From Alphaproteobacteria bacterium (GTDB taxonomy: Bacteria > Pseudomonadota > Alphaproteobacteria > UBA9219 > RGZA01): DNA of 32,205 nucleotides. The notes below the pieces were generated by a model. The model saw only the letters and a program-made list of their open reading frames with translations, had not been told where the DNA came from and searched no databases. The translations under genes and the position numbers were made by a program. This document shows, one piece after another, positions 5,341-26,905 of the stretch. Location: positions 1-32,205 of the forward strand of contig RGZA01000010.1 in assembly GCA_010031785.1 (NCBI GenBank), written 5' to 3'. Position 1 is the first letter of the stretch; each line of letters starts with the position of its first letter.

Positions 5341-5369
5341 GCAAGGTTTGTGAGTTCTATAAATAAAGT

Positions 5370-5745
5370 GGGGGGCTTCTGTTGCCCGGTGCCCCCCGGA
5401 CCGCTAAGACTTAAACTATCTTACCGAGTCCCAAAGGACTAAGCAGCGATAGCGATTTCGTCTTGAGGAGCAACGTTGTCGTTGGCATCCGTAGTTGTTA
5501 GCCCGATAACGGCGGAACCATGCCGAGCAAAAACTGCACTTTTACTACATACGTCGATCCTAGTTCGCCCCCACAGCAAAAGTCAGTAATGAGGATTTAG
5601 TAATGAGTAGTAAGAGCTATTTCTTCACTACTCACTACTCTTTACTCACTACTACCTTTTGATGGTGGAGGCGCCGGGTACCGCCCCCGGGTCCGTCCTG
5701 CTTATTCTGTACAGCGTTTATCACTATAGTCGGTAAAACCGACGC
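5370..5745 (-). ncRNA. ssrA: tmRNA, circularly permuted two-piece form
   Basis: Transcribed on the minus strand as acceptor piece, spacer, then coding piece. The acceptor piece ends in CGCCTCCACCA at 5663 and is preceded by a T-arm-like GC-rich hairpin and a GTCGG/CCGAC hairpin (5729-5743). An AT-rich spacer with CACTACT repeats (about 5573-5662) is presumably removed. The coding piece begins GGGGGCG at 5572, followed by the conserved GGATCGACG. Its 7 bases pair with the acceptor 3' strand and leave G3-U70, the AlaRS identity pair. The tag frame runs from 5486 to the TAG at 5439 and reads ANDNVAPQDEIAIAA. The GC-rich 3' part (about 5370-5400) forms the last helix. A TATAAG at 5755-5750 could be the -10 box. 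tmRNA rescues stalled ribosomes, and the outer boundaries are approximate. Confidence 0.95.
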
Positions 5746-5879
5746 CCATCTTATAGCACAAAACCCGTAACAAATCGTGCACTTATTTTAATCAGATATT
5801 TCAACCCGTTATAAGTTGACCTTAAGGGGCTTTCTTATGAAACTAGAGCCATATTGATTCCTCTTATCTGGATTCCATC

Positions 5880-23908: not shown

Positions 23909-24817
23909 ATGATTGCCGCCCCCAAAAAATTATTGTTCATAACCTCCAACCGCCTTGGTGATGCGGTATTATCGACCGGCGTGCTGGCTAAGGCGATTGA
24001 GCGTTTTGCGCCAACGGAAATCACCATCGCCTGTGGGCCCATTCCTGCGCCGTTATTTACTGCGGTACCTAACCTTAAAAACATCATCATTTTAAACAAG
24101 CAGGAGCGGGGCCTCCACTGGCTCAAACTTTGGCAGCAGGTTGTGCCGCACATCTGGGATGTGGTGATTGATCTGCGCAATTCCGCCGTGTCCTATTTAA
24201 TCTTTAGCAAAAAAACCTTCCGCTTCACGCAAGGCGATGAGACGCGCCATAAATCTGAACAACTCGCCGATGCGCTGAAGCTCACGGATATTCCTTATAA
24301 CAAAATCTGGCTTAGCGCTGCGGCACAGCAATTAGCGCAAACAACGCTGTATGATGGCGAGCCTATTCTTGCGCTATGCCCGACCGCAAATTGGCAACCC
24401 AAAACATGGCCAGCCAATCGCTTTATTAAAGCAGCCTTGCGGTTGCCATTTCAGCGCATCGCCGTGTTTGGTGCTGAGCATGAACGCGCGCAGGCGATGC
24501 CGATCATCAATGCCTTGCGCGCCTCGCGTGATGTGATTGATCTGGTCGGTAAAACTAACCCACTCGAAGCCGCCGCATGCCTTGCGCGCTGTAATTTGTG
24601 CATTGCAAATGACTCTGGGTTGATGCATATCGCAGCCGCCATGGGCATCCCTACACTCGGCCTTTTTGGTCCAAGCAATGATGTGGAATATGCGCCGCAT
24701 GGCCCGCATACTGCTCTCGTGCGCGGTGCGCCGTTTGATTACACCGATAATCCTTTTGCCCTTATGCAGGCGATTACGGTTGATGCAGTTGTAAACGCAG
24801 CAAAAAAACTAATATAA
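23909..24817 (+). CDS. GT9-family glycosyltransferase (heptosyltransferase-like)
   Basis: About 302 residues from the ATG at 23909 (MIAAPKKLLFITSNRLGDAVLSTGVL). AAAGG 4 nt before it supports this start over an in-frame TTG at 23888. The N-terminal Rossmann domain has the GD motif of ADP-heptose transferases. The C-terminal nucleotide-sugar domain has LCPTANWQPKTWPANRF, LVGKTNPLEAAACLARCNLCIANDSGLMHIAAAMGIPTLGLFGPS. Such enzymes add heptose to the LPS inner core on the cytoplasmic face of the membrane. The donor sugar is inferred from the family only. Confidence 0.88.
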   Translation: MIAAPKKLLFITSNRLGDAVLSTGVLAKAIERFAPTEITIACGPIPAPLFTAVPNLKNIIILNKQERGLHWLKLWQQVVPHIWDVVIDLRNSAVSYLIFSKKTFRFTQGDETRHKSEQLADALKLTDIPYNKIWLSAAAQQLAQTTLYDGEPILALCPTANWQPKTWPANRFIKAALRLPFQRIAVFGAEHERAQAMPIINALRASRDVIDLVGKTNPLEAAACLARCNLCIANDSGLMHIAAAMGIPTLGLFGPSNDVEYAPHGPHTALVRGAPFDYTDNPFALMQAITVDAVVNAAKKLI

Positions 24818-24873
24818 ATAGTGCGTTAGCCTATTTCCTTTGACAAAAACATTCATTCCACGCATGTTCTTTG

Positions 24874-25028
24874 CATTCCAAGAGGTGCCCAACTTAACCT
24901 CGGATGACGTATAGGGCGGCGACCGCCGCCCCGCGAGCTTATGCGAGCGAAGCCATACGGCGTCTGAGCATAAAAAGGCTGAGAAATACTCTTTGAACCT
25001 GATCCGGGTAATGCTGGCGCAAGGGATG
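24874..25028 (+). promoter_or_regulatory. TPP riboswitch (THI element) with enlarged P3 arm
   Basis: The conserved core is present: GGTGCC (24884-24889), GGCTGAGAAATACTC (24977-24991), GAACCTGATC (24995-25004) and GGGTAATGCTGGCGCAAGGGA. P1 pairs CATTCC (24874-24879) with GGGATG (25023-25028), one G-U. It lies directly before thiC. The P3 side holds an extra structured stretch (about 24899-24968) with its own hairpins. Downstream, GCATC (25057-25061) can pair with GATGC (25089-25093) over the thiC ribosome site, so control may act on translation; no terminator with a U-run is seen. The remainder of the 24818-25096 gap shows nothing else. Confidence 0.95.
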
Positions 25029-25075
25029 GAATGGTCAAATCCATATCTCGCATTCAGCATCGCTCTTAACTGTAG

Positions 25076-26905
<1,830 letters not shown>

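Follow-up and report, generated by a model that had tools for sequence, protein, structure and literature searches.

The insert in the thiC riboswitch

We asked what the long structured insert in the P3 arm of a thiC riboswitch is, and how the aptamer accommodates it, in a 32,205-nucleotide stretch of alphaproteobacterial DNA (the window; contig RGZA01000010.1). The window's own genome (G000) was compared with those of two congeners, G001 and G002, which are other species of the genus. The thiC gene lies at 25097-26905 (+), with matches to PF01964 (617 bits) and PF13667. Directly 5' of it is a TPP riboswitch whose aptamer spans 24875-25032 (+), or 158 nt. In a permissive scan of 24780-25140, RF00059 matched with a score of 46.5 bits (E 3.4e-8). 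This lies below the gathering score of 54.3, a curation threshold and not a structural feature, so the riboswitch went unnoticed in the default Rfam scan of the window. The 5' half of the model was pulled into the insert, so the start of the match (24936) is wrong; the 3' half aligned to the consensus. The leader resembles other RF00059 members in its P1, P2, UGAGA and P4/P5 block, in its position upstream of thiC and in being the single match in its genome, as in each of the three genus genomes. Unlike them, it has a P3 of 93 nt that holds a dispersed repeat. The features of the leader are as follows.

24875..25032 (+): TPP aptamer, P1 to P1 (AUUCCA / UGGAAU); RF00059 match (46.5 bits), P1 and P2 invariant in three species, span read from the sequence
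24881..24884 (+): P2 5' strand AGAG, pairing with CUCU at 24989-24992; leader comparison, three species
24887..24889 (+): P3 base 5' strand GCC; leader comparison, three species
24899..24912 (+): 5' arm (clamp) CTCGGATGACGTAT, able to pair with the 3' end of the element; thiC copies only
24911..24970 (+): copy of the dispersed repeat; 86.9 bits, E 7.2e-24, to model R1, built without any thiC copy
24914..24931 (+): hairpin 1, GGGCGGC-GACC-GCCGCCC; compensatory changes among orthologues and among copies
24932..24949 (+): hairpin 2, CGC-GA-GC-UUAU-GC-GA-GCG; folding and copy comparison
24955..24968 (+): element 3' end ATACGGCGTCTGAG, 3' strand of the clamp stem; folding, leader comparison, identity test
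24977..24984 (+): GGC, the 3' strand of the P3 base, and UGAGA, conserved in J3/2; invariant in three species, fits the Rfam consensus
24985..25032 (+): P2 3' strand, P4/P5 and P1 3' strand; RF00059 alignment, species comparison
25023..25049 (+): candidate anti-P1 hairpin GGGAUGGAAU...AUCCAUAUCUC (expression platform); Shine-Dalgarno switching proxy
25086..25092 (+): likely Shine-Dalgarno AAGGATG; from sequence

P3 is closed by GCC (24887-24889) and GGC (24977-24979). The earlier note, made from the letters alone, had placed a structured insertion in P3 of this riboswitch, and both the insertion and its sequence proved to be as described; the ends that it gave (24899-24968) are exactly those of the clamp stem. 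In isolation the insert folds at -38 kcal/mol (z -3.2), and one of 200 dinucleotide shuffles did as well. The inner hairpin, the CGC/GCG hairpin beside it and the CTC/GAG and GTAT/ATAC pairings are all supported. Minimum-free-energy folding and the comparison of orthologues did not favour the proposed GAC/GTC pairing with a GGC bulge; the favoured register instead pairs CTCGGAT (24899-24905) with GTCTGAG (24962-24968) and, across a small internal loop, CGTAT (24908-24912) with ATACG (24955-24959). Energy folding alone did not predict P2 of the window aptamer, nor did it predict the P3 base when the 5' flank of that base was left out.

We next considered how unusual this architecture is. A search of 96 genomes (the window's own and relatives) with RF00059 gave 88 matches in 70 genomes. 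The 85 matches outside the genus, all alphaproteobacterial, span 91-138 nt with a median of 107, against 158 nt in the window. The three genus members scored 46.5, 54.2 and 50.3 bits, all below gathering, as did four further matches outside the genus; the insert-bearing riboswitches thereby fall under the Rfam cut-off and escape a default scan. All three congeners (G000, G001 and G002) carry the insert at the same position in P3, and G003 and G004, of the same family and another genus, have an ordinary short P3. The statement that P3 is usually far shorter in bacteria holds for the relatives, although one study (PMC12632268, in its accessible part) reports extended P3 arms for the thiC switches of Klebsiella and Serratia. 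There, as here, insertions lengthen P3 of a thiC TPP switch; those of Klebsiella pneumoniae are 17 and 7 nt long, and a repeat origin is not described in that part of the source.

A dispersed palindromic repeat

The note had also suggested that the insert might be a captured repeat, and this was right. A BLAST search of the window's own genome with the insert found three other places at an E-value of 4e-4 or better. Since the same element recurs across the genome, the insert is more than a chance structure. Among about nine best candidates per genome, at least four of the 96 genomes matched the insert at E ≤ 0.001: that of the window, both congeners and a genome from a different family. We built a covariance model, R1, from 18 aligned copies, leaving out all thiC copies. 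This independent model scored the thiC copies at 86.9 bits (window, 24911-24970), 72.4 bits (G001) and 79.9 bits (G002), and found multiple copies per genome at E ≤ 0.1: seven in G000, 33 in G001 and 23 in G002. The insert thus belongs to a dispersed family.

These scores bear on the possibility that P3 is an ordinary extended arm that grew locally, its likeness to other loci being coincidence or assembly error. Extended P3 arms are indeed known in other TPP switches (PMC12632268, as far as that source is accessible), but the 86.9 bits come from a model made without thiC copies, and the insert is present in three separate assemblies with divergent orthologues. We give local growth almost no credence.

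The element, a three-hairpin repeat of about 60 nt, comprises two covarying hairpins and a GCC/GGC stem. R1 matches were at most 104 nt long, and most measured 60-73 nt. Seven of 59 genomes searched with R1 matched at E 0.001; G003 and G004 did not. A pattern of 22 letters from the core, two of its positions left free, occurred in 60 stretches of a named genome collection, each bearing the label of an alphaproteobacterial MAG or lineage (e.g. Telmatospirillum, Rhodospirillales, Kiloniellales, Micavibrio), and an R1 scan of 31 of these 60 loci gave 36 matches. No Rfam family covered the element at 13 loci with copies, where the sole Rfam match was a tRNA. A match of PtaRNA1 to the insert (14.9 bits, gathering 47) was dismissed as chance. 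A plasmid search returned no match for the repeat.

Two further observations were made in these collections. One IMG/VR contig (IMGVR_UViG_3300044960_000299) bears the repeat core. In MAGs of Telmatospirillum and Rhodospirillales, the repeats are often larger mosaics in which another long hairpin, AGTCTCGATGAG...CTCATCGAGACT, is attached to the core.

Compensatory change and divergence

Pairing is kept among the copies. Of the cells in the 18-copy alignment, 95.9% pair, with two-sided changes in nine of 15 pairs (26 two-sided cells against 4.9 in shuffles), no one-sided changes and no G-U pairs. In 64 distinct rows, whose alignment was fitted to the model, 93.6% of cells pair, with 119 two-sided cells; hairpins 1 and 2 together contain about 18 G-U cells. 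The paucity of G-U pairs suggests that pairing may be kept at the DNA level.

The three orthologous thiC leaders were a check named with the original proposal: the insert is conserved in place and paired, not unconserved and non-structural. Over 39 pairs, 95.7% of cells pair (31-44% in a slid control) and five pairs show two-sided changes (at most one in the control), these being small counts from three orthologues that are related to each other. Three of the five lie in hairpin 1, one in the clamp stem and one in a short stem below the clamp, which is broken in one or more species.

Divergence separates the riboswitch from its insert. Two aptamer core blocks are identical at 62/68, 62/68 and 68/68 positions, the last being G001 against G002. 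The element copy in the leader is 78-92% identical between species, and orthologous copies outside riboswitches are 67-100% identical. The core is nearly invariant and the insert falls within the range of other copies; therefore the riboswitch is kept, and the insert shows no visibly stricter conservation than copies elsewhere. Judged by its sequence, the aptamer core is intact, and from this we infer that the window's switch would still respond to TPP.

Downstream signals were compared with a crude proxy, namely whether the P1 3' strand is free or held. By this proxy, Shine-Dalgarno accessibility changed clearly in G002 and slightly in G001, and no change was seen for the window's own leader. 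Given that the predicted effect is clear in G002 only, we claim no switching mechanism shared by the three species.

A probable clamp at the base of the insert

A 14-nt arm precedes the element at thiC. Compared with the reverse-complemented 3' end of the element, it shows 11, 11 and 10 of 14 identities in the thiC copies, which rank 1-3 of the 63 copies with enough flank; the other 60 have nine or fewer. This fixed-length identity test was chosen after two others, of which the longest contiguous helix (G-U allowed) did not single out the thiC copies and local alignment separated them in part (p 0.000, 0.015 and 0.09). This additional stem probably acts as a clamp that makes the insert part of an elongated P3. 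The arm could have arisen by inverted copying of the element's 3' end, or by selection.

A matching arm raises the question of whether the insert has been domesticated, such that selection keeps an elongated, clamped P3 that tunes the switch through folding kinetics, ligand selectivity or a protein recognising the element. The presence of the insert in all three congeners, the compensatory changes and the restriction of the clamp arm to thiC would fit this, as would the extended P3 of the Klebsiella thiC switch, where single-nucleotide deletions altered the pyrithiamine response (PMC12632268, in its accessible part). However, the identity of the insert lies within the range of orthologous copies outside riboswitches, so that no extra constraint is visible, and the linkers around it are poorly conserved. 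We therefore regard domestication as unlikely. A scenario in which the host gained the 5' arm after insertion, creating a clamped multi-way junction at the P3 tip that alters folding, binding or a protein reader, seems doubtful to a similar degree. The suggestion that the insert may tune folding kinetics found no support, as it diverges as fast as orthologous copies outside riboswitches beside a nearly invariant core.

Genomic contexts of the repeat

We then looked at where the copies lie, calling the contexts of 64 copies with a simple home-made gene caller. Of these, 27 adjoin a gene 3' end (three of them are bordered by one on each side). Another 11 precede a same-strand start by 40 nt or less, and four lie just upstream of an opposite-strand start only. 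Six copies are inside genes on the same strand and one on the opposite strand. The remaining 15, including the three thiC copies, are elsewhere.

The six same-strand copies inside genes, two of which are orthologous copies in mutM, all share a single reading frame and encode peptides like KGGDRRPASLCERSPAAFEQ. The mutM site is filled in G000 and G001, where MutM has about 20 extra residues, and the peptide is absent in G002 and G004. Since both filled and empty sites exist, the element was inserted at mutM or was lost cleanly. The same element is translated as part of MutM, and in the thiC leader it is read as RNA.

The 11 copies close to same-strand starts, together with the conserved hairpins, could also be taken to mean that the repeat serves the whole genus as a cis-regulatory RNA motif, perhaps as the binding site of a protein, with thiC as one instance; copies lie just upstream of rplK (two genomes), rpmE (two) and rpmI (one), the gene names having been read by eye from translations. 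Such a single role fits poorly with 27 of 64 copies at gene 3' ends and six in coding frames. Changes in the hairpins are almost all Watson-Crick, with few G-U pairs, which hints at pairing in DNA. We consider a regulatory motif quite improbable.

Relation to known repeat classes

Since no transposase, general target-site duplication or general terminal inverted repeat was found for the element, mobility would rest on its distribution and on the filled and empty sites. A classical MITE was rejected. Direct repeats were scanned in the 43 of 64 copies with a TTGAG-like 3' end (the other 21 were left out), and an 8-bp repeat was found at one (G002:C13:99244); the copies share no terminal inverted repeat, and a complementary 5' arm occurs at thiC only. 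This exception occurs in G002 only, where the gene preceding thiC has another copy of the element at its end, in inverted orientation (G002:C13:99244-99316) and flanked by TATATGAG.

The element resembles REPs and the CGTC- and GTAG-tagged palindromes in that many copies lie at gene 3' ends, as reported for REPs in the accessible part of that literature. CGTC repeats, which have been reported from Micavibrio and other Alphaproteobacteria (PMC3733652, seen in part), are defined by CGTC at one end, a stem of 8-9 bp and a loop of 4-5 nt. Our element has three hairpins, not one, and no GTAG tag. A minority of copies have GGCGTC close to the 3' end (of 43 copies, 30% have C at position -7). A REP/RAYT origin was also rejected: PF01797 (Y1 transposase) has two matches in G000 and none in G001 or G002, yet the latter two are the richest in copies, with 33 and 23.

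The element also resembles the Rickettsia palindromic elements (RPEs), which are likewise short structured repeats lying in frame inside genes with an encoded peptide. In-frame RPEs are described in a review of MITEs (PMC10969869, accessible in part), and the mutM sites and the six copies sharing one frame correspond to such insertions. The likeness concerns structure and placement. The lineage differs, and so does the length: about 60 nt here against 105-146 bp in the accessible part of a 2007 review (PMC2229807).

How the riboswitch may carry the element

Taken together, we consider it very probable that a palindromic element behaving like RPEs entered the P3 loop of thiC and has been tolerated there by a core that still works. 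A short non-autonomous palindrome of about 60 nt, dispersed in the genus, would have entered the terminal loop of P3 in a common ancestor of the three sampled species. It would be tolerated there for two reasons: the tip of P3 is remote from the ligand pocket, and the element folds by itself and so brings its own ends together. The same self-folding could let it sit in frame inside protein genes. The 5' arm found only with the thiC copies would pair with the element's 3' end and clamp P3 into a continuous elongated arm, with which the TPP-binding core could still form and regulate thiC.

If so, the locus illustrates the way in which foreign sequence can be accommodated within an RNA sensor. 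The three species would constitute a natural experiment on the uptake of a self-folding insert of 60 nt by a ligand-sensing RNA, and its accommodation is testable base by base through the clamp arm. For Rickettsia, the hosts on record are protein genes and the genes for tmRNA and RNase P RNA (PMC2229807, the part seen). The literature searched, which covered few subscription papers, contained no report of a riboswitch aptamer as host of a dispersed palindrome.

A separate observation concerns another structured RNA in the window. At 5367-5782 (-) lies a permuted alphaproteobacterial tmRNA, whose intervening loop contains a long A/U-rich near-palindrome, AGTAGTGAGTAGTG...ACTACTCATTACT. This is possibly another inserted palindrome.
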